Virus record (IMG/VR): IMGVR_UViG_3300050018_000004
Location: 1 to 24,129 of that record
Strand: one strand, 5' to 3'
Source: a virus
DNA length: 24,129 bases
Positions 2,716-24,129 of the stretch are shown piece after piece. Numbering within the stretch: the first letter of the stretch is position 1; each line of letters starts with the position of its first letter. A program made the translations under genes and the position numbers. The notes beneath the pieces are model-generated. The model had not been told where the DNA came from, did not search any database, and was given only the letters and a program-made list of their open reading frames with translations.

Positions 2716-3162
2716 ATGAAGAAATCAACATGCCATCCAGAGGTAGAGGAGTTTGCTAAAGGATTATGCCAAAGATGTTATATGAGTCAATGGCGAGTCG
2801 GTAAGGATAGGTCCAAAGAAAACCACACACCTAAAGCAATCATCCGAATGAGAAGTTGGTATGAGAAGAACAAGAATGATAACTTCTCTATGCGTAAAGA
2901 GACAACCATAAAACACAGGTATGGTATCTCACTAGAAGAGTATCAACAAAGATTGGAAAGACAAAACAACCTGTGCGCCCTTTGCGGAGAAGCCTTCTAT
3001 GGTGGACCCAAAGGTTCAGGTCGTCCAGTACTAGACCATAATCACGAGTATAGCACGTTGCGAGAGTTTATACACAGCAAGTGCAATGTCGGAATAGGTC
3101 ATTTTGATGACAACCCAGAACGCCTTAGAAAGGCAGCAATTTACTTGGAGAAATTCTTATGA
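2716..3162 (+). CDS. Recombination endonuclease VII-like HNH nuclease, 148 aa
   Basis: This is likely a beta-beta-alpha metal endonuclease of the endonuclease VII type. T4 gp49, of that family, resolves branched DNA before packaging. An N-terminal Cys motif (CHPEVEEFAKGLCQRC) resembles the short zinc motif common in these proteins. The catalytic part runs from NLCALCGEAF (CxxC) through LDHNHEYSTLREFIHSKCNVGIGHFDDNPERLRKA (given in pieces: DHNH, then HSKCN, then DNPERL). It matches the usual DH-H-, CN-, G-, DNPxxLxxA order. Two 60-base stretches that I counted inside it have 23 G+C each, clearly lower than the neighbouring genes, which hints at a separate origin. Its start lies behind a structured leader and its stop overlaps the next ATG. 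A homing-type HNH is the alternative to a packaging resolvase. Confidence 0.85.
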   Translation: MKKSTCHPEVEEFAKGLCQRCYMSQWRVGKDRSKENHTPKAIIRMRSWYEKNKNDNFSMRKETTIKHRYGISLEEYQQRLERQNNLCALCGEAFYGGPKGSGRPVLDHNHEYSTLREFIHSKCNVGIGHFDDNPERLRKAAIYLEKFL

Positions 3163-10968: not shown

Positions 10969-11231
10969 ATACAGTAAAGGTACTGGTGGTGTTGGTACTG
11001 TCTGCAGCCCTTGCATTCGCTCAGGGACACAATAAACCTGAGGAGCCACACGCGAATTGCTGCCTGTGCATGTGTCACGCTAAAGACGAGACACTGTGCT
11101 CTAAGATGTGCATACGTCTGCAACACGGAAAGAAAATTGTGTACGAACCAGAGATGGACGTGTGCACTAAGGAATGCGCAAGAGTGCATGTGAAGACAGT
11201 GGAGTATGATTCGACTCAGGAGACTCAATGA
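10965..11231 (+). CDS. Exported cysteine-rich small protein, 88 aa
   Basis: Unknown function. A clear Sec-type signal peptide (MNTVKVLVVLVLSAALAFA, probable cleavage after AFA at residue 19) is followed by a 69-residue mature part. That part has eight Cys: CCLCMCH, then CSKMC, then CTKEC about 18 residues later. The paired CxxxC motifs suggest disulfides in the periplasm or a metal cluster. Export from a phage late operon suggests action on the envelope, such as lysis help, superinfection exclusion or periplasmic chaperoning of a tail part. This is inference. There is no lipobox. Its last residues QETQ are again encoded by the next gene's start element. Confidence 0.78.
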   Translation: MNTVKVLVVLVLSAALAFAQGHNKPEEPHANCCLCMCHAKDETLCSKMCIRLQHGKKIVYEPEMDVCTKECARVHVKTVEYDSTQETQ

Positions 11232-11977
11232 ACAACGGTGGGGATGTACTAGCACGAGGAGCACGAAGCGCACAGTTTGCAGCAGGCGGAAGCGAGTTGT
11301 CAGACTTTGAGTATGACCTTCGCACTCGCAATGAACTTGTTGGGCAGAAGTATGGACTTAGCCCCACAGAGATTGAAAGTTACATGATCCGACTCAATGC
11401 TGGGGAACGACTAGAACTAAAATCCACAGCACTCGTTGAAGAGTTAGGCGCTGGCATAGAAGTGATTGACCGCCGCCGCAGTTACTCAACGGAAGTAGCG
11501 GAAGTTACGGCAGCCCCAGTGGCCCCAAAGAAGTATCCAGAAAAGAAATTCTCAGCGTTCTCTCCTATTCTCGACCGCATCCTAGTGAAGCGATGTGCCG
11601 AGGGTCCGGATATGAAGATCATGGAGGATGGCAGCGTCCTCAATACGAAGACTGGACTAGTCATTGCTGCTAAGTACCGACAGCATTCCAACATCGGCAT
11701 TGTGCTAGCCACAGGGAAACTTGTTATCCTCGGTGGGCAGCGTCTTGCGATGAGCGAAGTGGTTCGCGTGGGAGACCGCGTGACCTACGGCGACTACAAC
11801 TCAGAAGTATTTCTCATGAACGAAGACAAGGTTAAGGAACTGTGCGACAGCGTGCAGATGAACTACGAGCCCGATCCAGAGGGCCTTCGCATTGTGCGTG
11901 TGCAGGACGTACGCGGCACAGAGCGCGAGGACACCACAGTAGAAGAGTTCTTCTCTCTGGAGGGCAACAATGTCTAA
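11228..11977 (+). CDS. Protein with C-terminal GroES-like co-chaperonin domain, 249 aa
   Basis: GroES-type proteins cap GroEL during folding; phages such as T4 (gp31) carry their own so that the capsid protein folds. Residues about 108-230 match the Cpn10 pattern: FSPILDRILVKR, then TGLVIAAK, then GIVLATGKLV, then VVRVGDRVTYGDYNSEVF, ending RIVRVQDVRG, the usual last strand. The N-terminal 105 residues are extra. They include a helical FEYDLRTRNELVGQKYGLSP segment that looks like a small separate domain, plus a Pro/Lys linker. A standard GroES is about 95 residues, so this is a fusion. The start overlaps the previous stop (ATGA) behind GGAGACTCA. Its place soon after the capsid gene fits a capsid-folding role. 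Confidence 0.8.
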   Translation: MNNGGDVLARGARSAQFAAGGSELSDFEYDLRTRNELVGQKYGLSPTEIESYMIRLNAGERLELKSTALVEELGAGIEVIDRRRSYSTEVAEVTAAPVAPKKYPEKKFSAFSPILDRILVKRCAEGPDMKIMEDGSVLNTKTGLVIAAKYRQHSNIGIVLATGKLVILGGQRLAMSEVVRVGDRVTYGDYNSEVFLMNEDKVKELCDSVQMNYEPDPEGLRIVRVQDVRGTEREDTTVEEFFSLEGNNV

Positions 11978-13030: not shown

Positions 13031-13852
13031 ATGGACGCAACATGCAGTTCACCAACAACGCGGGGCGACCTTAGCTCTGCGATGACTCGGGCAAATAACA
13101 TGGACTGGAACTTCTCAACGGCAGATTATATGTTGAGTCGCCCAGCCGACTTCTTTGTGTACCTATTCAACATCGCCAAGCAGCGGTACGAGGTTTCTCG
13201 CCTGCCACTGTTAAAGGATATGATTATCCCTGCGCGTCGAGAAGGTACGAAGTACGCACTAATCACCAAGCTGCCGTCACCGTTCAAGTTCCCCAAGGGG
13301 AATGTGGACTCCAATGATATCGACATCGTTGTCATGGACGGACGACGCATGGCAATGGACATTATCAACCCTGACAACTTTTCGTTGGATCAGGATGCTG
13401 TTATCACGAAAAGTGAGTCCGTGGGACAGAACCTAGGCAAACTAGGAGTGTTCTGGTCGTTGAACGCAGAGCCAACAGACATCGAACTAGCTGCAGTAAC
13501 TAGGCGTTTAGAAGCACACTACCGTAGTCTGCTTACAGATGCGCGTACTGTGGAAACGTCGAATCCTGCCGCTCTTCCTGCGATCTTAACCCCGGCCCAT
13601 CACGCGGCTGCGGATTACTTCCACGAGACGTTCAATTGGCACAAGAAAGAAGTGCACTTAGAGAACTGCGAACGTTGCGGTTCACCAGCGCGTGTCGGAG
13701 CACCTTTCCATCCTATGGACGGTGGTGGTCTGTGCGTTGGAGATTGGGCCGCAGCCATCAAGGCTGGCGTCCGCAGTCGTGCGCAAGCCTACGAAGCAAC
13801 GGAAGACGAGAAGTACGCACCGCGAGCAGTCAAGGTCGCGGAGCAGGAGTAA
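13031..13852 (+). CDS. Hypothetical protein with C-terminal zinc-binding motif, 273 aa
   Basis: Unknown. Residues 1-130 are mixed helix and strand (WNFSTADYMLSRPADFFVYL, then FNIAKQRYEVSRLPLLKDM). The middle has IDIVVMDGRRMAMDIINPDN. About residues 165-210 form a helix with HHAAADYFHETFNWHKKE. A CERCG knuckle lies near 214-218, with a further Cys about 20 residues on (GGGLCVGDW). The four ligands for zinc are not all obvious, and a nearby His could complete them. AAGGACTCAAT precedes ATG. A possible role in the neck or tail is inferred only from position. Confidence 0.72.
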   Translation: MDATCSSPTTRGDLSSAMTRANNMDWNFSTADYMLSRPADFFVYLFNIAKQRYEVSRLPLLKDMIIPARREGTKYALITKLPSPFKFPKGNVDSNDIDIVVMDGRRMAMDIINPDNFSLDQDAVITKSESVGQNLGKLGVFWSLNAEPTDIELAAVTRRLEAHYRSLLTDARTVETSNPAALPAILTPAHHAAADYFHETFNWHKKEVHLENCERCGSPARVGAPFHPMDGGGLCVGDWAAAIKAGVRSRAQAYEATEDEKYAPRAVKVAEQE

Positions 13853-13858
13853 GTTAGT

Positions 13859-13979
13859 CACGTGCTGCGGTACATGAGTCCGCCTCTTCATCAAAGCGGC
13901 CAGCACGTGCACATCTTGGTACGCCTAGCCCCGCTTAGCCTTGGGGTTCTGAGTCCCCCGTAGTCTGGGTTAGGCTAGG
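13859..13979 (+). other. Structured intergenic RNA, first half
   Basis: CACGTGCTG (13859-13867) pairs with CAGCACGTG (13901-13909), with an inner CCGC/GCGG stem (13880-13883 with 13896-13899). Downstream, CCTAGCC (13924-13930) pairs with GGCTAGG (13973-13979), enclosing GGGG/CCCC complementarity. No reading frame with a ribosome site is evident. It could be a small RNA, a processed leader, or a protein-binding region. Confidence 0.45.
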
Positions 13980-14007
13980 GTGCCATGTAATTTCAACACT
14001 ACGACCT

Positions 14008-14076
14008 TAGGGGGAAGTGTGAACTAGTAACGCAGTGATCTGAGTCCACGGCGCAACTTTGTTCCACTTCCCCCTA
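14008..14076 (+). promoter_or_regulatory. Long inverted repeat before the adaptor-like gene
   Basis: TAGGGGGAAGTG (14008-14019) is perfectly complementary to CACTTCCCCCTA (14065-14076). After one bulged T, GAAC (14021-14024) pairs with GTTC (14061-14064), giving 16 bp in all around a 36-nt loop. TGCTTATTTTAAA follows, then the ribosome site. It resembles a terminator or attenuator stem placed directly in front of the next gene. Confidence 0.5.
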
Positions 14077-14098
14077 TGCTTATTTTAAAGGAGATTCC

Positions 14099-14956
14099 AT
14101 GGGTGGCTCACCAACAATCAATGTTCCTCAGGCGAATGGTAGCACGTCGTTAGCGACAATCATGGACCTCGTACGCAGTCTCGTCAATGACACCCAAGCA
14201 GGTGCTACGGACACTCCGGGTGAAGGTCAGATTTTTACGAACAACCCTGCTATCTCTCCCTTCACGCAACCCTTCCTTAATAGTTCCATTCGAGAACTGT
14301 ACCGCGAGCTACGCAACGTAGGCGAGCCCGTCCTAATCAAGGACAACATCATAATCACTGGGCTTCCCATCATAAACAGCCCGACGCAGGGGTTAGGAGC
14401 AGTGGACCCTGCCGTGCAAACTGTCCTGTCAACCTCTGGTTACTTCGATGGTGTGCAGATATGGCCCAACTTCCCACTGCCGGGGGACATGTTGTACCCC
14501 ACATGCGTGTCGGAACGCCAAACTGGAAGCAACGACGTGTTCCATTCCATGGATGTTCCATCAGGCGGACTGCCAAGCGCTATGCAGGGGCCGTACTTGA
14601 AGCAATGGGAATGGCGCAATAACAACCTGAACTTCCGTGGAGCCACGCAGAACGTAGACATACGTATGCGGTACTATTGCGCGCTGCCACAGTTCTTCAG
14701 TCAGACGCTGGACTTTTCTGCAACGTACGTACCTGTGCTAGACTGCACAGATGCAGTGGCTTATATGACTGCGGTCAAGTACGCCCGTATGCTAGGGTCA
14801 CCGGGATTAGCTGACCTACTGGCAGAGTCTAAGAATCAGATGTTCCAGTTGAAGAACGCAAATGCGCGCCGTATGCAGCATGAGGATTTCTCCCGTATAC
14901 CGTTCGGAAACAGCGACGGCGACCTGAACAACGAGTTTTCGTTTATGTCGTGGTAG
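14099..14956 (+). CDS. Possible head-tail adaptor/connector protein, 285 aa
   Basis: Probably a neck protein. The N-terminal helical part (SLATIMDLVRSLVNDTQAGA, about 17-36; then FLNSSIRELYRELRNVGEPV, about 59-78) resembles the opening of adaptor proteins that bind under the portal. In those, a helix with 'LVRxLVxD' is followed by 'lN.a.rel...l...G'. The rest is beta-rich with many aromatics (YFDGVQIWPNFPLPGDMLYP, then QWEWRNNNLNFRG). It ends with a helix (AVKYARMLGSPGLADLLAES) and a polar tail. AAAGGAGATTCC gives a clear start behind a long inverted repeat. I rate adaptor as likely but not certain; a minor head protein is the alternative. Confidence 0.6.
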   Translation: MGGSPTINVPQANGSTSLATIMDLVRSLVNDTQAGATDTPGEGQIFTNNPAISPFTQPFLNSSIRELYRELRNVGEPVLIKDNIIITGLPIINSPTQGLGAVDPAVQTVLSTSGYFDGVQIWPNFPLPGDMLYPTCVSERQTGSNDVFHSMDVPSGGLPSAMQGPYLKQWEWRNNNLNFRGATQNVDIRMRYYCALPQFFSQTLDFSATYVPVLDCTDAVAYMTAVKYARMLGSPGLADLLAESKNQMFQLKNANARRMQHEDFSRIPFGNSDGDLNNEFSFMSW

Positions 14957-16493: not shown

Positions 16494-17885
16494 ATGAAGG
16501 TACTCATAGCAGTTTTGTCTTGTGAACTGTACAGAACCAATGGCAACAACCAAGCCCTTAGGGACACGTGGCTTCCATCCATCGTGGGAGCAGACTACAA
16601 GTTCTTCATGGGGCAAGGCAGCACGTGCTCAGAGTCCGATGAAGTCTACCTCGATGTCCCCGATGACTATGGGCACGTGACCTACAAGACACGCGCCATA
16701 TACAAGTGGGCGTTAGAGCAGGGCTACGACTACATTTTCAAGTGCTTCTCTGACACCTATGTGTGCCCAGATAGGCTGCTACGCAGTGGCTTCGAGAACT
16801 ATGACTATATAGGAAACTTTGCGTGCAGGCCACAAGGAAGTTTTGCGTACTGCACTGGTGGTGCTGGGTATTGGCTAAGCAAGAAGGCGTATGGCCCACT
16901 TGCAACGGCGCACATCCCAGTAGATGACCTAGTTGTTGTGATACCTCCGAACAGGCGGTCCCTTAGGGGTCGAGCCCCTACCCGTCAAACTCACATACCC
17001 TCAATAACAAAGGTTCCCAACACACTGGTGTGGGCTGAGGACAGGTGGACTGGCGGCCTAGTGTACACGCACGAAGACTTGAAAATATTCCACGACACTC
17101 GCTATGAGGAAAATGTGTACGGTAGAGGTCCAGAGCACAGCAACAACACCATCAGCATACACCTATCACGCACAAAGTACGTAGAGGGTTCGCCATCTAC
17201 GTATGATAACGCGTGGATGCGTGACAAGCACAATGCGTGGTTACGGGGCATTGTCGTCCCAGTGTCAGGGTTCCACAACAAAGACATCCGCGAGTTCTAC
17301 GACTGGGAGCATGAGATGTTTGATCCAGCAGGAAGAGAGCACACGATAAACAAGATTGCTGTGGTCACTCCTACGGTTCCTAACCGAAGCAGTCTGCTGG
17401 AGGAGTGCAAGGCATCGGTCAAGGCCCAGACGTGGGGAGGAGACATCCTTCACGCCGTTGGAGAAGACCATGCAAACGTCGGTGCCGCTGCCATGCGCAA
17501 CGATATAGTACAAGGCATTGACCCGTCGTACGAATGGCTCGCGTTCTGCGATGACGATGATGTGTTGTTGCCAGACCATCTGGCCACGTTGGCAGCAGCC
17601 AGCAATGGTGCCGACATCATATATTCTGATTGCCGCGAAAAGGGTTTTACAAAGACGTGGAAGACAAGACCTTTCAACTACGAGGAAGTCAAAGCAGCAA
17701 ACTACATCCCTGTAACGGTACTCATGCGACGTAGTATGTTTGAAAAGGTAGGAGGATTCCAATCCGAACCCTACCCCGGAGAGGATCAGCATCTATGGCT
17801 CAGGGCCGCTTTAGCAGGGGCGAGGTTCGTTTACGTGCCACAGACCACGTGGACGTACCGCCAGCACCCGCAGTACCGAACGTAA
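16494..17885 (+). CDS. Two-domain glycosyltransferase, GT31-like plus GT2-like, 463 aa
   Basis: Two catalytic modules in one chain. Residues 1-about 250 resemble GT31 (beta-1,3-galactosyl/GlcNAc transferases). They contain [10 protein letters not shown], then NNQALRDTWLP, KFFMGQG, KTRAIYKWALEQGYDYIFK, FSDTYV (Asp87, the metal-binding motif position), YCTGGAGYWLS and WAEDRWTGG. Residues about 285-463 are GT2-like: NKIAVVTPTVPNRSSLLEEC, a DXD-type metal site FCDDDD (Asp353-356), and GEDQHLWLRAALAG. A 30-odd-residue segment rich in Arg and Pro (about 144-177) splits the GT31 module near its catalytic end and contains a DNA palindrome. The stop overlaps the next start (TAATG). It is likely to add two sugars in sequence to one glycan. 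Donor and acceptor are unknown. Confidence 0.82.
   Translation: MKVLIAVLSCELYRTNGNNQALRDTWLPSIVGADYKFFMGQGSTCSESDEVYLDVPDDYGHVTYKTRAIYKWALEQGYDYIFKCFSDTYVCPDRLLRSGFENYDYIGNFACRPQGSFAYCTGGAGYWLSKKAYGPLATAHIPVDDLVVVIPPNRRSLRGRAPTRQTHIPSITKVPNTLVWAEDRWTGGLVYTHEDLKIFHDTRYEENVYGRGPEHSNNTISIHLSRTKYVEGSPSTYDNAWMRDKHNAWLRGIVVPVSGFHNKDIREFYDWEHEMFDPAGREHTINKIAVVTPTVPNRSSLLEECKASVKAQTWGGDILHAVGEDHANVGAAAMRNDIVQGIDPSYEWLAFCDDDDVLLPDHLATLAAASNGADIIYSDCREKGFTKTWKTRPFNYEEVKAANYIPVTVLMRRSMFEKVGGFQSEPYPGEDQHLWLRAALAGARFVYVPQTTWTYRQHPQYRT
16964..16980 (+). repeat. Palindrome inside the GT31-like module
   Basis: TAGGGG (16964-16969) and CCCCTA (16975-16980) are perfect complements around TCGAG, inside an Arg/Pro-rich stretch that the paralogous enzyme at 21338-22045 lacks. 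It resembles a tRNA T-arm only superficially: acceptor and other arms are absent. Confidence 0.45.
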
Positions 17886-18571
17886 TGGCTTCCGATATCC
17901 CGGTGTACATCAACAACCGCGACCGCCTAAGCAGCATGACGAGGCTGGTAGAGTGGCTGATCAACGCAGGGACTAAGCGCATTGTGATCTTAGACAACGC
18001 ATCTACGTACCCTCCTCTTCTGAAGTGGTACAAGAACCTGCCTAGGGATGGTGTAAGTGTTAGGCTACAAAACAACCTAGGGCCGTGGTCCTTCTGGGAA
18101 CAGGGGCTGCATTTAGAGCAGAGTACACCGTACGTGGTAACTGACGCCGACCTAGTGCCGAGTGATTGTTGCCCATCAGATTTGAAAGAAGTATGCTACA
18201 AACTTCTGACAAATAACCCCGGCTGTGGCAAGGTTGGCCCCGGCCTGCGGCTCGACAACATACCAGAACTAAGCAGGAACTTCATCACCAACGGCGATGG
18301 AAAAGGTTGGGAAGGTGAAGGCGTGTTCTGGAAGCGTAGGCACTCCTCAGGAGCGTTCAATGCACCGCTGGACACAACCTTCGCAATATACAACGCCTAC
18401 TCCCCATGGATAGGCGCAGGTTGGCAGAATATCAGAACTGATCTTCCTTACGTAGTGGAGCACACCCCATGGTACGTCACCAAGCCTTTCTCCGAAGAGG
18501 AGCAATACTACCGCGACCACGCGAGCAATACATGGTCACACGTCACGTGGCCCAGCCCCATCAACAACTAG
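17885..18571 (+). CDS. GT-A fold glycosyltransferase, 228 aa
   Basis: A nucleotide-sugar transferase of the GT2-like superfamily. It opens with IPVYINNRDRLSSMTRLVEW (a nucleotide-binding first strand and helix), then RIVILDNASTYPPLL, the typical 'D(N/S)xS' region. It has a metal-binding DAD (Asp87-Ala88-Asp89 in VVTDADLVPSD), preceded by NNLGPWSFWEQGL, which matches the 'N.G...a.N.g' position. The C-terminal half carries many Trp and Pro (PWIGAGWQNIRTDLPYVVEH). ATG 17885 overlaps the upstream stop as TAATG, so no strong ribosome site is needed; a further upstream frame extension would be a shadow. Substrate unknown. Its place between a GT31/GT2 fusion and a fucosyltransferase suggests the same glycan. 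Confidence 0.75.
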   Translation: MASDIPVYINNRDRLSSMTRLVEWLINAGTKRIVILDNASTYPPLLKWYKNLPRDGVSVRLQNNLGPWSFWEQGLHLEQSTPYVVTDADLVPSDCCPSDLKEVCYKLLTNNPGCGKVGPGLRLDNIPELSRNFITNGDGKGWEGEGVFWKRRHSSGAFNAPLDTTFAIYNAYSPWIGAGWQNIRTDLPYVVEHTPWYVTKPFSEEEQYYRDHASNTWSHVTWPSPINN

Positions 18572-18579
18572 GACTCAGA

Positions 18580-19311
18580 ATGATCACAGTCAACACATGT
18601 GGAGGGTTAGGAAACCAACTCTTCCAGTACGCCTTTGCTCGTTCATTGGTAGGAAAGTATGTTGTGAATCTTACCGATGCGTGTAATCAGTATGGCCTTC
18701 AGTTGAATCACTTCAACATTACCTTGCCGATTATCCCACACCCAGGCTGGCGCTGGATTGCAGAGCGCTCACTAAGATTCGATCCACTCCCCGAAATAGA
18801 GGACAACGCAATTATCGCTGGGTACTGGCAGTGTGAAAAGTACTTCAGCCACATGGCAGACGTGCTGAAAACCGAGTTGACCCTTAGAGTTCCACCAAGT
18901 GTTACCGCCCAACGGTTTGCTGAACAAATAGACGTAACGCCGAACAGCGTAATGGTACACGTCCGCCGAGGGGACTACCTGACGTGGGCGGCACAGCGTC
19001 ACGGCGCTCTACCGATGCATTACTACGAACAGGCTCTGTCACGGTTTACGAATCACAAAGTTTTTCTGTTCTCTGACGATCCGAGTTGTCCGTTTCCTAC
19101 TCCATACACCAGAGTTCAGTGTCTGCCACACGAAGAGTTGTGGCTTATGAGCAAATGCAAGAACGCCATCATCGCCAATAGTTCTTTCAGTTGGTGGGGT
19201 GCCTACTTAGGCGCAGATAAGACTGGAATCGTAGTAGCTCCACAGCAGTGGTTCAGAACCGGGAACGAAGACGCAGCAGATATTGTCCCAGATCGTTGGC
19301 TCAGACTATGA
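18580..19311 (+). CDS. Alpha-1,2-fucosyltransferase, GT11 family, 243 aa
   Basis: Transfers L-fucose from GDP-fucose to the 2-OH of a galactose-type acceptor. The family signatures are all present: GGLGNQLFQYA (residues 8-18), the GDP-binding HVRRGDY (127-133, the HxRRxD motif) and the C-terminal ANSSFSWWGAYLG (about 199-211). Length is slightly short for bacterial GT11 enzymes (about 280-300). I chose ATG 18580, directly behind AGGACTCAGA, because the core motif starts right there. A longer upstream reading frame would overlap the previous gene. The stop overlaps the next ATG. E. coli and Helicobacter relatives modify O-antigens and Lewis-type glycans. Members of this family also accept GDP-colitose-like donors, so the donor is not fixed by sequence. 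Confidence 0.92.
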   Translation: MITVNTCGGLGNQLFQYAFARSLVGKYVVNLTDACNQYGLQLNHFNITLPIIPHPGWRWIAERSLRFDPLPEIEDNAIIAGYWQCEKYFSHMADVLKTELTLRVPPSVTAQRFAEQIDVTPNSVMVHVRRGDYLTWAAQRHGALPMHYYEQALSRFTNHKVFLFSDDPSCPFPTPYTRVQCLPHEELWLMSKCKNAIIANSSFSWWGAYLGADKTGIVVAPQQWFRTGNEDAADIVPDRWLRL

Positions 19312-19469
19312 AGTGGAAAAAGATGGCGTTGGAGTTGTTCTTCTTTAGATTCGGAAGACGCTGCGTGCTGTGCTCCAAACTCGTAGATACAGCGGACGCA
19401 CATATAGAGATTAGGGACAAAGAGTACTACCTCATGCACAAGGCATGCAAGGCTCAGGAGACGAAATGA
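19308..19469 (+). CDS. 53-residue zinc-finger-like miniprotein
   Basis: [20 protein letters not shown], then CVLC and a later HKAC give a C-x2-C ... H-x2-C zinc-binding arrangement. It is flanked on both sides by ATGA overlaps, with the fucosyltransferase before it and gmd after it. Its end, AQETK, is encoded by the start element CAGGAGACGAA. Function unknown; it could be a translation coupler or a small regulator of the glycan genes. Confidence 0.65.
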
Positions 19470-20431
19470 AAGCCCTAGTTACAGGCATCACAGGACAAGA
19501 CGGCTCCTACTTAGCGGAATTGCTGCTAAAGAAGGGGTACACAGTGCACGGATTGATGCGGCGATCATCCAGCTTCAACACAGGGCGCATTGAGCACATC
19601 TTTGACCAGTTGAATCTGCATTTCGGTGACCTTAGCGATGGCAGTGCACTAGGTGCACTTTTGGCAAAAGTACAGCCCGACGAAGTGTACAATTTGGGGG
19701 CGCAGTCCCACGTGCGCGTGTCATTTGATTGCCCTGAATACACGGCAGATGTGGATGCCATGGGAACACTCAGGCTCTTAGAGGCAGTAACGGCGCACTG
19801 TCCAAAGGCACGGTACTACCAAGCAAGCTCTTCGGAGTTGTTCGGCAAGGTGCTGGAGACTCCACAGACGGAAACAACGCCATTCTACCCCCGCAGTCCC
19901 TATGGGATTGCCAAGCAGTTCGCATACTGGTGCACAGTGAATGCCCGTGAGCAGGGTATGCACGCCAGCAACGGTATTCTGTTTAACCATGAGAGTCCTC
20001 GGCGCGGAGAAACGTTCGTCACGCACAAAGTCACCAAGGCGGCAGTCAAGATATACCTTGGACACCAGCACTCTTTGTATCTAGGAAATCTGGATGCTAA
20101 ACGTGACTGGGGACACGCCAAAGACTACGTTGAGGCGATGTGGCTCATGCTACAGCAGGAAACCCCAGACGACTACGTGATCGCCACCGGAGAAACGCAC
20201 ACCATACGAGACCTCCTAGACGTAGCCTTTGGTCACTTCGGTCTGGATTGGCACAGCTACGTGAGCGTTGACCCAAAGTACTACCGCCCCACCGAGGTTG
20301 ACATCCTGCAGGGTGATGCATCGAAGGCTAAGCGAGTGCTTGGTTGGGAACCAAAGATCAGATTCAAAGAACTCATTAAGGAAATGGTTGACTCAGACTT
20401 TTGTGAGGTTCAGAATGAACTTAGAACTTAA
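19466..20431 (+). CDS. gmd: GDP-mannose 4,6-dehydratase, 321 aa
   Basis: Converts GDP-D-mannose to GDP-4-keto-6-deoxy-D-mannose, the branch point to GDP-fucose, -rhamnose, -perosamine and -colitose. It is a short-chain dehydrogenase of the extended type with NADP-binding [12 protein letters not shown] (Gly7, Gly10, Gly13). The catalytic set is Ser123-Glu124 in SSSELFG and Tyr146-x3-Lys150 in SPYGIAK. Gmd-typical runs include [27 protein letters not shown] and a late YYRPTEVD. Length is close to the usual 320-370. ATG 19466 overlaps the previous stop, with CTCAGGAGACGAA before it. It overlaps fcl by 17 nt, the usual gmd-fcl pair order. Likely cytoplasmic and dependent on host GDP-mannose. Confidence 0.95.
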
Positions 20432-21341
20432 ACGAGTACTGGTGACGGGTGGGACAGGCTTCCTAGGGTCACACATTGTGGACAAGTTGTACGATCATGG
20501 CTGCTTGAGCGTGGTTGTGCCAGAGCATTCCCAGTATGATCTACGACGCCGCGAAGAAGTCTGCGACATGTACCGTAATTTCAGCCCAGACATTGTTATC
20601 CACGCTGCAGCGATGTGTGGAGGCATACAATCCTGCTCAGCAAACCCTGCGCGGTTCCTGTACGACAACTTGACGATGGGACTCGAAGTGCTCGAAGGGG
20701 CCAGAGAGTACAAAGTTGAGAAGTTCGTAGCCATCAGCAGTGTGTGCGCTTACCCTTTGAATGTGTCGTTGCCGGCGAAGGAAGATGACCTGTGGAACGG
20801 CTACCCAGAAGCAACGAACGCTCCTTATGGGATTGCCAAGCGTGTCCTTCTGGAACAGTGCAAGGCGTACCGCAATCAATACGCCATGAACTGCATCGGA
20901 TTGGTGCCAGTGAACATGTACGGACCACGAGACAGTTTTGAGCCTGTGCGTTCCCATGTTATTCCGTCCCTCATACGCAAGTGCATAGAGGCTAAGCGTG
21001 ACGGAACAGACTTCACAGTGTGGGGCACAGGGAAAGCCAGCCGAGAGTTCCTGTACGTTGAGGACTGCGCGGAGGCTGTGGTGCTCGCAACGGAGAAGCA
21101 CAACGGTGAAGAGCCCGTAAACATAGCCACAGGTGACGAAACGCCTATAGAGAACGTGGTTGGGATAATTTCATCACTATTGGCATACCGTGGGTTAGTA
21201 AAATGGGACATCAGTAAACCAGACGGGCAACCACGCCGATTGTTCGATACGTCTCGCGCCAAGGAGTTTGGGTTCAAAGCAACGACACCGCTGTGGCAGG
21301 GGCTGAGCAAAACTATCGAGTGGTACATGGATAGACTATGA
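20415..21341 (+). CDS. fcl: GDP-L-fucose synthase (or ColC-like relative), 308 aa
   Basis: 3,5-Epimerase/4-reductase that turns GDP-4-keto-6-deoxymannose into GDP-L-fucose with NADPH. Catalytic residues line up with the E. coli enzyme at an offset of two: Ser109 in ISSVCAYP, Cys111, Tyr138 and Lys142 in APYGIAKR, and His181 in SHVIPSLI. The cofactor motif is GGTGFLG (Gly12, Gly15, Gly18). It overlaps gmd by 17 nt, and its stop overlaps the next ATG. GAGGTTCAGA precedes the start. ColC, the bifunctional enzyme of GDP-colitose synthesis, is a close relative and could look similar. The following DegT-type gene makes that worth considering. Confidence 0.9.
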
Positions 21342-22045
21342 AAGTGCTTATAGCAGTGCTCAGTTGTATACCGCACGCCGTTAACGGGTGCAACCAAGTC
21401 ATGAGAGATACGTGGCTAAAAGACACAGGAAGCGCAGAGTACCACTTCTTCATAGGAGACGGAACTGCCCCCACCGAAGACATGACACTCTTAGATGCGT
21501 CATGGAAAAAAGAGTCTCCTGCGTATACAAAAAGCACGTTCTCAAACGAAGCAGCTACGGGGTACGAAAAAAGAGAAGATGAAGTCCTCCTAGCAGTCTC
21601 TGACAAATACGAGCACATGCCTCTCAAATTAAAGGAGACTCTTCGCTGGAGTTTGGGTCACAACTTTGACTTTGTTTTTGTCTGCCTAACCGATACTTAT
21701 GCTTCTATTGAGCGCTTGCTGAATAGTGGCTTTGAAAAGTGCGAATACTGCGGAACTGCGTATTATGTAGTGGGCGGCGGTCCCGGTATGTGGCTCAGTA
21801 GACGGTCGATTGAGTTCTTAGTGAATGCTCCTATAACCAACTGGGCTTACGATAAGTGGGTAGGAGAAGTGTTGTTGTCGAACGAAGTGCCTATGACCAA
21901 TGACAAGCGGTACTCGAACCTCGACCTAGGAGATGATCCTCCCCTACCGAACAACGCAATCATCACTTCACACATCGCCAATAGAGATCGTACCATATAC
22001 TACCCAAGCATGATGACAAAGTTGCACGAAAGGTCGCAGGCATGA
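21338..22045 (+). CDS. GT31-like glycosyltransferase, 235 aa
   Basis: Stand-alone paralogue of the first module of the 463-residue fusion: [10 protein letters not shown], then NGCNQVMRDTWL, YHFFIGDG, LKETLRWSLGHNFDFVFV, LTDTYAS, a Cys-containing gap, GGGPGMWLSRRS, and W-Y-K-W. It lacks the Arg/Pro-rich insert of the fusion. In its place the NAPITNWAYDKWVGEVL segment joins the core directly. The xDTY metal-binding motif is shared. A Lys/Glu-rich insertion (TKSTFSNEAATGYEKREDEV) is unique to it. The stop overlaps the next ATG. A beta-1,3-linked galactose or GlcNAc transfer is plausible from the family, but the substrate is unknown. Confidence 0.8.
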   Translation: MKVLIAVLSCIPHAVNGCNQVMRDTWLKDTGSAEYHFFIGDGTAPTEDMTLLDASWKKESPAYTKSTFSNEAATGYEKREDEVLLAVSDKYEHMPLKLKETLRWSLGHNFDFVFVCLTDTYASIERLLNSGFEKCEYCGTAYYVVGGGPGMWLSRRSIEFLVNAPITNWAYDKWVGEVLLSNEVPMTNDKRYSNLDLGDDPPLPNNAIITSHIANRDRTIYYPSMMTKLHERSQA

Positions 22046-22770
22046 CAGTCGTTCAAAGTTTATGGATGGGCAGTGGAAGTTTGTCCGACGTGGAGAGACT
22101 GGCTATAAACTCATTCATAAAAAATGGCCATGAATTTCATCTGTACACCTACGGACATATGGAGAACGTACCCACAGCAGCCATTGTAAAGGATGCAAAC
22201 GAGATAATTCCACAGGATAAGTCCTTCGTGATAAACCCTGTGGCTCACGTCAACGGATGTTACTCCAGCTTTTCAGACTTCTTCCGATGGAAGTTGATAC
22301 TCGACAGAGGTGGATGGTGGGTAGATTGCGACCTAGTGTGCCTAAAGCCTTTTGACATCACCAGTGAGTACGTGTTTGTCGGAGGTCAGGGCAAACCCGG
22401 ATCAGACGACTGTATTGCCAGCCATGTATTCAGGTCTCCAAAGGGCAGCGCCATTATGCAGTGGAGTTGGGAACAATGCCAGACTATGAACCCACACACA
22501 ATGTCATGGGGAGCAGGTGGACCGCCGTTGATTACAGAAGCAGTTGACAAGTTTGGGTTCTTGAAGGACATCTTACCCCTAATGCAGTTCTGCCCCATAC
22601 ACTACCGAGACTTTCCGGCAGCGTGGTTAACGCCAGATGCCCCACCCCTGCCCGATGTGTACGCCATACATTTCTTCAGCAGTCAATGGCGCATCAAAGG
22701 AATAGACAAAAATGGGACGTACCCTGCAACGTGTCTTTACGAGCAACTTAAAAAGAGATTCAGCAGTTAA
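22042..22770 (+). CDS. GT32-type glycosyltransferase, 242 aa
   Basis: DXD-containing transferase related to the OCH1 / alpha-1,4-galactosyltransferase group (GT32). It begins VVQSLWMGSGSLSDVERLAI. It has the DXD site in GGWWVDCDLVCLKPF (Asp95 and Asp97), preceded by SDFFRWKLILDRGG, a typical 'sD..Ry..L...GG.y.D.D' arrangement. A later GPPLITEAVDKFG and a C-terminal HFFSSQWRIKG follow the family order. ATG 22042 overlaps the previous stop (ATGA) with AAAGG upstream. It probably extends the glycan with an alpha-linked hexose or HexNAc. Soluble, no signal peptide. Confidence 0.82.
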   Translation: MTVVQSLWMGSGSLSDVERLAINSFIKNGHEFHLYTYGHMENVPTAAIVKDANEIIPQDKSFVINPVAHVNGCYSSFSDFFRWKLILDRGGWWVDCDLVCLKPFDITSEYVFVGGQGKPGSDDCIASHVFRSPKGSAIMQWSWEQCQTMNPHTMSWGAGGPPLITEAVDKFGFLKDILPLMQFCPIHYRDFPAAWLTPDAPPLPDVYAIHFFSSQWRIKGIDKNGTYPATCLYEQLKKRFSS

Positions 22771-22783
22771 CACGGAGACTCAG

Positions 22784-23560
22784 ATGTTCAAGACAGTAAC
22801 CATAGGCGGAACTCTACACAATCACTTTGCAGATCAGGTCAGACCTGTGTCCATAGCCACCGACACCTTCGACTTCACCGACACCACAGAGTACAAGGTT
22901 TTTTACCAACTTGAGCCGCCTGACATTGTGCCTACGGAACAGGCATTGCTAGACAGCCATACGTTTTACGACCTTATCCTAGCATGGAACCAAAGAGTGC
23001 TAGACGGGTGCCCAAATAACGCGCACAAGTTCATCTTTGGGACATGCCGATGGGCAGAAGACCCAGCCGATGACTGCGATGTGTCTAAGAAGCAGTTCGC
23101 CGCGTCTTACTTGACCAGTTCCAAGACGATGTGCAAGGGACACCACTTCAGACACGATGTTTTCAACGGTCTATCAGCGCAGGTTGGACAAGTTCCTATT
23201 ACCAAGCACATGTCACCTCCGTATGTAGAAGACAAAAAGGAGTTTCTGTATCCTTTCCAGTACGCCATCGTCATGGAGAATGGCAGGCGCACTAACTGGA
23301 TAACAGAAAAGTTGATTGACTGCTTGGTGTCACGTACGATTCCGATCTATTGGGGCTGTCCCAACGTCGGAGAGTACTTCAACACAGACAGCATACTGTC
23401 GTTCGAGACACAAAGTGATCTCATGGCAGTTTTGGGACAACTTTCGTCAAGTTTTTATGCATCAAAACTTGACGCAATTGACGCCAACCTGCACGAAGCT
23501 ATGAAGTACACCAATCTGCACAAACGGATTGATGAAGAGATAAGGAAAAGACTGCAATAG
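22784..23560 (+). CDS. Alpha-1,3-fucosyltransferase, GT10 family, 258 aa
   Basis: Adds fucose in alpha-1,3 linkage to GlcNAc or Glc-type residues. The diagnostic GT10 motif is present at about residues 155-185: FQYAIVMENGRRTNWITEKL, then a IPIYWGCPNVGEYFN tail. The N-terminal part (MFKTVTIGGTLHNHFADQVR) and the FGTCRWAED region fit a GT-B fold with the acceptor side first. Length is shorter than Helicobacter enzymes (about 350 and over) because their heptad repeats and membrane tail are lacking. ATG 22784 lies directly after CGGAGACTCAG; an upstream in-frame extension would overlap the previous gene. Together with the GT11 enzyme it could make doubly fucosylated, Lewis-like ends. Confidence 0.9.
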   Translation: MFKTVTIGGTLHNHFADQVRPVSIATDTFDFTDTTEYKVFYQLEPPDIVPTEQALLDSHTFYDLILAWNQRVLDGCPNNAHKFIFGTCRWAEDPADDCDVSKKQFAASYLTSSKTMCKGHHFRHDVFNGLSAQVGQVPITKHMSPPYVEDKKEFLYPFQYAIVMENGRRTNWITEKLIDCLVSRTIPIYWGCPNVGEYFNTDSILSFETQSDLMAVLGQLSSSFYASKLDAIDANLHEAMKYTNLHKRIDEEIRKRLQ

Positions 23561-23572
23561 GGGACGACTCAG

Positions 23573-24129
23573 ATGATTACACTAGGTACTCTATCAATCA
23601 GCGACCAAGGTAAGAAGTACGTAAATGATTGCCTCGATAACAACAGACTTTCTCGTGGAAAGTACACGGAAAAGTTTGAGCAGGACTTTGCTAGGCTGCA
23701 CGACTGCAAATACGGTGTATTCTGCAACAGCGGCACGTCGGCATTGCAGATTGCATTGGCAACGCTTAAAGAACGACACAAAGACGATTACCAAGATGAC
23801 TCCGAGGTCTTGGTCCCTGCAATTACTTTCATAGCCACGTCGAACGTGGTGATCCAGAACAACTTGAGGCCAGTATTCGTGGACGTGGACCCTGTTACGT
23901 TCAACATGGACCCAGAGAAGATCGCAGACAAGATCACACCACGGACTAGAGCCATCATTCCAGTTCATCTCTTCGGTCTCCCGGCCAACATGCCACGCAT
24001 CATGATGATTGCTAAACACTGGGGCTTGGATGTGATTGAGGACTCCTGCGAGACAATGTTTGCAGGCATTAACGGTAGGTCAGTCGGCACGTTTGGTAAC
24101 ATGGCGTGCTTCAGCACTTACGTCGCGCA
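23573..24129 (+). CDS. DegT/DnrJ/EryC1/StrS-family PLP enzyme, N-terminal part (3' truncated by window)
   Basis: Sugar-modifying PLP enzyme, fold-type I; 185 residues are visible. Family marks: CNSGTSALQIAL (phosphate cup), VLVPAITFIATSNVV, PVHLFGLPANM, and IEDSCETMF with the PLP-binding Asp157. The window ends at CFSTYVA followed by the partial codon CA-. In this family the PLP-bound Lys is the seventh residue counted from FS (FSxxxxK). Here that codon can only be His or Gln, as in the sugar 3-dehydratases ColD and RfbH, which have His. If confirmed, the substrate would be GDP-4-keto-6-deoxymannose from Gmd, giving a 3,6-dideoxy sugar rather than perosamine. GGGACGACTCAG precedes ATG. The family call is firm; the reaction type is inference. 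Confidence 0.85.
   Translation, partial: MITLGTLSISDQGKKYVNDCLDNNRLSRGKYTEKFEQDFARLHDCKYGVFCNSGTSALQIALATLKERHKDDYQDDSEVLVPAITFIATSNVVIQNNLRPVFVDVDPVTFNMDPEKIADKITPRTRAIIPVHLFGLPANMPRIMMIAKHWGLDVIEDSCETMFAGINGRSVGTFGNMACFSTYVA

Follow-up and report, generated by a model that had tools for sequence, protein, structure and literature searches.

Sugar genes at the end of the window

The stretch of DNA analysed here, referred to as the window, is a complete IMG/VR virus record of 24,129 bases, and its final open reading frame (23573-24127), which begins with ATG and ends EDSCETMFAGINGRSVGTFGNMACFSTYVA, belongs to a DegT-type gene that runs off the 3' end. A run of sugar-nucleotide and glycosyltransferase genes precedes it, and the features are as follows.

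16494..17885, plus strand: two-part glycosyltransferase, galactosyltransferase-like plus GT2-like (weak Pfam matches PF01762 and PF13641; syntenic gene in L002 78% identical)
17795..18571, plus strand: conserved protein of the cassette, probably a glycosyltransferase, with an uncertain start (syntenic gene in L002 75% identical; no Pfam match)
18580..19311, plus strand: GT11 glycosyltransferase, from the fucosyl/colitosyltransferase family of WbgN (PF01531, E 2.5e-19; 31% identity to the E. coli O55 GT11)
19469..20431, plus strand: Gmd, GDP-mannose 4,6-dehydratase (TIGR01472, 503.9 bits, cut-off 415; SSSELFG and YGIAK motifs)
20415..21341, plus strand: Fcl/ColC-type 5-epimerase/4-reductase, a GDP-fucose or GDP-colitose synthase (NF047922, 278 bits, under the cut-off of 500)
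21338..22045, plus strand: cassette protein akin to the first half of the 16494..17885 product, probable glycosyltransferase (29-32% identity to relatives of that 463-aa protein)
22042..22770, plus strand: DXD-type sugar transferase (PF04488, E 2.5e-4, just below cut-off; gene in L010 and L011 55% identical)
22712..23560, plus strand: GT10-like fucosyltransferase (PF00852, 25.8 bits, cut-off 23.9)
23573..24129, plus strand: His-type DegT-family enzyme, predicted GDP-4-keto-6-deoxymannose 3-dehydratase, truncated at its 3' side by the contig end (PF01041, E 3.9e-57)
24038..24061, plus strand: EDSCETMF motif, with the Asp for the PLP/PMP ring and a Cys-Glu pair, by alignment
24128..24129, plus strand: incomplete codon CA- for the catalytic Lys/His residue, read as His from its homologues

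A preliminary description of this DNA had placed Gmd and a relative of Fcl or ColC upstream of the DegT gene, and both identifications hold, the former by its TIGR01472 score and the latter by the intact catalytic residues Ser107, Cys109, Tyr136, Lys140 and His179. With its sub-threshold score to the Fcl model NF047922, the 20415..21341 product is about equally distant from Fcl (34% identity) and ColC (31%), and an attempt to assign it to one or the other was given up because these identities are nearly equal and the catalytic residues are common to both. The colitose cluster of E. coli O55 has the same gene set as the window, namely gmd, a GT11 colitosyltransferase, ColC and ColD. The short-chain dehydrogenase/reductase (SDR) proteins of the window have no above-cut-off match to CDP-glucose dehydratase, and neither a CDP-sugar partner nor a ferredoxin-reductase partner was seen in the window.

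Elsewhere in the phage, PHROGs matches were limited to the terminase, a GroES-like stretch and an 'aminotransferase'. The second of these lies in the structural-gene region, in a 249-aa protein at 11228-11977 with a stretch resembling the co-chaperonin GroES (PHROG 3188, E 1.3e-5). Small ORFs judged by eye to be GIY-YIG- or HNH-like homing endonucleases occur in the window (2716-3162) and in the viral relatives L002 (5768-6304) and L011 (7327-7995), where the ORF separates Gmd from the Fcl-like gene in L002, and the Fcl-like gene from the DegT gene in L011.

The catalytic position in the truncated gene and its relatives

Membership of the fragment in the DegT/DnrJ/EryC1/StrS family (PF01041) is established by profile score, residues 11-183 covering profile positions 5-171 at 194.6 bits against a cut-off of 19.8, and by the fold of the relative L002. 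The codon for A185 occupies 24125-24127, and the two bases that close the record, CA, begin a codon that on the DNA of the window alone is either His or Gln. The preliminary description had read the frame as ending CFSTYVA followed by CA-, such that the next residue could never be Lys, and both frame and bases were confirmed. Set against ColD, RfbH, two perosamine synthases, ArnB and WecE, the residue after A185 aligns exactly to the Lys/His column, and no neighbouring Lys takes its place. The earlier description thus had the column right; its spacing of seven positions from FS needs a slight correction, as the residue lies six after F180, or seven if F180 itself is counted.

Complete relatives were then used to read this column. 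A scan of viral records with peptide patterns that leave out the catalytic site returned 27 loci, 45-85% identical to the window protein, and all 27 have His at the catalytic column, with neither Gln nor Lys in any. Their complete ORFs run to 365-411 residues, and the VA is followed by HLIVGGVGG, HLLVTGVGG or a close variant, so that the signature around the catalytic His can be written as AHLxVxGVGG. Several of these records are near-copies (L006/L007; L008/L009/L027/L028; L012/L013). A second scan, with degenerate DNA for CFSTYVA only and the following codon left free, gave 15 matches, eight of which are in the DegT frame and continue with CAT in every case, the other seven being unrelated frames. 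Among relatives inspected as DNA, the codon is CAT or CAC. The genome scan retained 80 loci, again all with His, for a viral and genomic total of 107 of 107, although one of the two genome patterns included the His itself and these two counts are partly biased for that reason. Lys-type DegT control genes from the same genomes have Lys at the catalytic column throughout.

Because every complete relative has His, the partial codon of the window most likely encodes His as well. The bases CA by themselves would equally permit Gln (CAA or CAG), giving an inactive or altered enzyme in this particular phage, an outcome the preliminary description had allowed for; with relatives up to 85% identical all carrying His, none carrying Gln, and the DNA-level reads giving CAT or CAC, we regard it as scarcely credible. 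Other positions are kept along with the His in relatives spanning 40-86% identity: D157, S158-C159-E160, S181 and H213-G214. The Cys-Glu/Asp pair that follows ED-x is common to the window family, ColD (EDNCES) and RfbH (EDCCDA), and is missing from the aligned Lys-type references, apart from one with Cys at the second place.

Family placement, tree and fold

As reviewed elsewhere (PMC8987622), the 3-dehydratases ColD, E1/RfbH and SpnQ bear His instead of Lys, and an iron-sulphur cluster is found in E1 and SpnQ but not in ColD, which is recycled by glutamate. The Lys-to-His exchange that marks the His-type NDP-sugar 3-dehydratases (ColD, E1 and SpnQ) is present in the relatives, the window itself showing CA- only. 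None of the RfbH iron-sulphur cysteines (the CYC...C...C block) is found in the window family at the corresponding alignment columns, an absence that is a ColD-like trait, and the family also ends in GxHQ as ColD does.

All NCBIfam models scored below cut-off for the family members tested. The best full-length score is to RfbH (NF011936), at 231 bits for L002 and 190-256 bits over five relatives, against a cut-off of 423. RfbH/E1, the CDP-4-keto-6-deoxyglucose 3-dehydratase (PDB 3bcx), further resembles the window family in having the catalytic-column His directly after Ala and in its WGRD/HGRD motif. Membership in RfbH was nevertheless rejected on the combination of the sub-threshold score and the missing cysteines. 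The comparison with ColD (WbdK; E. coli O55/O111 and Y. pseudotuberculosis; PDB 2gms, 3b8x), the GDP-4-keto-6-deoxy-D-mannose 3-dehydratase, is closer. Both share the His-for-Lys column, the EDxCES-type and HG(W/R) motifs, and a gene cluster that also holds Gmd, an Fcl/ColC-type SDR and GT11. However, ColD is only about 28-29% identical to the window family by structural alignment, and it reads HHxxTxEGG where the window family has a single His, then Leu/Ile and GVGG.

Of two trees, with 69 and 52 rows, one was built after deleting the His column. In both, the window family forms its own clade (support 100/100), separate from ColD plus RfbH (100/98) and from the Lys enzymes (100/99). The midpoint roots differ between the trees, leaving an unrooted trichotomy of these three groups. 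The window family therefore falls outside the ColD+RfbH clade and, as judged from sequence, is a third His-type clade apart from both. The likeness to ColD and RfbH drawn in the preliminary description is accurate for the His at the catalytic column; the placement of the enzyme is where it departs.

The best phmmer match is GDP-perosamine synthase, at 35% identity. Structure prediction for the L002 protein (mean pLDDT 89.3) likewise gives GDP-perosamine synthase (PerA; PDB 3bn1/3dr4/3dr7) as the nearest solved fold (Z 49.8, rmsd 1.5 over 361 residues), followed by E1 (Z 48.0) and ColD (Z 46.8) amid many aminotransferases, so that the fold alone is no proof of function. Unlike the window family, which has VAH, the perosamine synthase carries a catalytic Lys (FGNK); this internal-aldimine Lys is missing in the window family, with His at that column in the relatives.

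We tentatively raise, as a reading that has a real but minor share of the probability, that the AHLxVxGVGG clade is a third class of sugar 3-dehydratase, with its own Lys-to-His change from an aminotransferase resembling GDP-perosamine synthase, separate from that of ColD/E1; phages might then have built cassettes for 3,6-dideoxy sugars two or more times, around different dehydratases. The clade ranges over phages, Patescibacteria, DPANN archaea, Omnitrophota and Acidobacteria. It is this widespread, separate His-type clade that is new, its members being named aminotransferases in families such as PHROG 3139. Public names say aminotransferase, yet 0 of 107 relatives have the transamination Lys. 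Under a new name, many uncultured bacteria, archaea and phages would be predicted to have a 3,6-dideoxy sugar as their surface sugar where an amino sugar is now expected.

Gene neighbourhoods and the predicted sugar

Three viral relatives (L002-L004) are nearly syntenic with the window. Gmd occurs on 15 of the 27 viral records, representing about ten distinct lineages and including all of the records closest to the window, with no Gmd nearby on the other 12. What looked like a TGA inside the L012 Gmd frame is the ordinary stop codon, close to where the match ends. An Fcl-type gene is found on seven of the 15 Gmd-bearing records, and Gmd together with a ColC-type synthase stands alongside the His-type DegT gene in the window, L002-L004, L006, L007, L010 and L011. 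The remaining eight Gmd-bearing records (four distinct lineages) have an SDR and an RmlC gene directly before the DegT gene, and Fcl is absent anywhere on these records of 27-186 kb. In this SDR, Cys109 and His179 are replaced by Glu and Arg, and the one RmlC tested passes TIGR01221, the RGLHFQ and YKC motifs being kept in the group. As the SDR lacks the epimerase residues and RmlC lies beside it, the epimerase function is present once per gene set. The Fcl-less phages retain GT11 and GT10 genes, which fits a non-fucose donor.

From these data we consider it probable that the truncated gene encodes a PMP/PLP-dependent, ColD-like GDP-4-keto-6-deoxymannose 3-dehydratase, providing GDP-colitose or a close relative to GT11/GT10. 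The preliminary description had proposed a colitose-type 3-dehydratase, and this proposal gains from the His in every complete relative and from the gmd/GT11/ColC/ColD set of E. coli O55. Also counted for this substrate is the fact that perosamine synthase, the nearest fold, acts on GDP-4-keto-6-deoxymannose. Counted against it are the position of the clade outside ColD/RfbH and below every NCBIfam cut-off, the sequence HLIVGGVGG after the catalytic position versus HHIATMEGG in ColD, and the sufficiency of Gmd and the Fcl-type enzyme of the window for GDP-fucose. A literature search found no measured activity for any member of the AHLxVxGVGG clade.

Under the proposed pathway, Gmd would convert GDP-mannose to GDP-4-keto-6-deoxy-D-mannose, a step well supported by its family. 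Going by the conserved residues, the DegT-type enzyme, with His replacing the Schiff-base lysine, would bind free PMP and form a ketimine with C4 of the sugar; His would take the C4' proton of PMP and the C3 hydroxyl would leave. Hydrolysis would yield GDP-4-keto-3,6-dideoxymannose and PLP, and PMP would probably be restored by glutamate as in ColD, without an iron-sulphur partner. The Fcl/ColC-type enzyme would then epimerise C5 and reduce C4 to give GDP-L-colitose, probably also making GDP-L-fucose from undehydrated substrate, and GT11 and GT10 would attach the sugar to a host-surface or virion glycan. In the related Fcl-less phages, the last step is presumably shared by two proteins, an RmlC-type epimerase and a reductase. 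Nature would thus have solved this step in two ways, by a bifunctional enzyme or by an epimerase plus a reductase, and the two are directly comparable. The product may be colitose itself, one of its stereoisomers or a 3,6-dideoxy sugar carrying a further modification, and in the window it may be made either together with fucose or instead of it.

The sufficiency of Gmd and an Fcl-type enzyme for GDP-fucose, together with the lack of an above-cut-off match to any curated family, would also suit a dead or repurposed aminotransferase homologue in a cassette for GDP-fucose only. The invariant His and the other kept positions listed above are unexpected in a dead enzyme, and eight phage records carry Gmd and the His-type DegT gene with Fcl absent, so we hold this to be highly improbable.

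Among bacterial and archaeal relatives, 28-31 of the 80 loci have a same-strand Gmd no more than about 4 kb away, which is the immediate neighbour in 24, and an Fcl/ColC-type SDR with C109 and H179 is near 25. No Gmd and no SDR of either kind is nearby at 30 of the 80 loci; therefore the substrate need not be common to all members, and some, also on the 12 viral records lacking Gmd nearby, may act on another sugar. As a control, the other DegT genes of 20 genomes had Gmd within 1.5 kb in 0 of 23 cases versus 7 of 7 for the His family, although these genomes were picked for Gmd near the His family, so that the 0 of 23 is the one count that carries information by itself. Such data bear on whether the enzyme instead acts, like RfbH/E1, on host-supplied CDP- or dTDP-4-keto-6-deoxyglucose, with Gmd and Fcl serving fucose only. 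The many genomic loci without nearby Gmd and the top NCBIfam score to RfbH would agree with such a role, which we judge improbable given the missed RfbH cut-off, the missing CYC...C...C cysteines, the lack of an above-cut-off CDP-glucose dehydratase match among the window SDRs, the enrichment of Gmd beside the His family rather than beside the remaining DegT genes in those genomes, and the retention of Gmd in Fcl-less phages.

A short gene pair resembling pyruvate dehydrogenase E1 alpha and beta accompanies the His-type DegT gene in several relatives. It directly precedes SDR-RmlC-DegT in the phages L005 (5270-6420) and L012/L013 (L012 5349-6469), and follows DegT in the bacterium L096 (10647-11700), an arrangement that may indicate a branched 3,6-dideoxy sugar built with the help of a TPP enzyme. 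Yersiniose and avilamycin are precedents for TPP enzymes that add two carbons. For the window, a 3,6-dideoxy GDP-sugar other than L-colitose, whether another C5/C4 stereoisomer or such a TPP-dependent branched sugar, seems to us rather unlikely: no E1 pair is seen near the genes of the window or L002-L004, and these have a bifunctional Fcl/ColC-type enzyme with complete catalytic residues, an enzyme type known to give the L-galacto-type outcome.

Known systems offer several parallels to this reading. The GT11 of E. coli O55 (WbgN) reportedly accepts GDP-colitose as well as GDP-fucose (PMC12723683, PMC11987014). The C. jejuni HS:5 pathway to a GDP-3,6-dideoxyheptose, in which a 4,6-dehydratase, a PLP C3-dehydratase, a separate epimerase and a C4-reductase have been proven biochemically (PMC10440746), has the same split enzyme layout as the L005, L008, L012 and L014 phages; it differs in using a heptose substrate and in its dehydratase, which is 62-67% identical to ColD and outside the window's clade. 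Gmd, GDP-fucose synthase and a GT11-type fucosyltransferase have been reported from the isolated cyanophage S-SCSM1 (PMC9602691). The isolated cyanomyoviruses S-CAM7 (KU686212) and ACG-2014f (NC_026927) carry Gmd-Fcl-ColD-GT11 cassettes with the same four-step gene logic as the window, but use a ColD-type dehydratase (FGHHMTTxEGG), 28% identical to the window family. These cassettes, colitose-type by look (KU686212.1, L029, 4067-7921; NC_026927.1, L164, 2990-6903), are annotated as epimerases and an aminotransferase or CDP-sugar dehydrase, and none of the papers searched names colitose together with cyanophage. Phage colitose-type cassettes are accordingly already present as sequence, and the idea has partial precedents. 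O-antigens are known to end in colitose-type sugars, and a phage with its own pathway could alter the host surface, for example versus competing phages, or decorate its own particle.

Among cellular relatives, the nearest (64% identity) is on an Acidobacteria MAG contig (L032, 5875-9224), where Gmd, an Fcl-type gene and the His-type DegT gene lie in one row. Its DegT protein groups as sister to the phage clade that includes the window, and acidobacteria may be the host or the source of the gene for the phage. The same contig has an RfbH-type DegT gene at about 13456-14800 (VSFYPAHHITMGEGG), and thus both His-type classes can co-occur in one organism. About 230 extra C-terminal residues are found on the His-type DegT proteins of L045 (4912-6837), L066 (8004-9872), L078 (3559-5406), L079 (8004-9866), L087 (8004-9875), L096 (8004-9902), L100 (4192-6033) and L108 (8001-9902). 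In L096 this extension has a weak GT2 glycosyltransferase match, and several of the extended genes are followed by an Fcl-type gene downstream.
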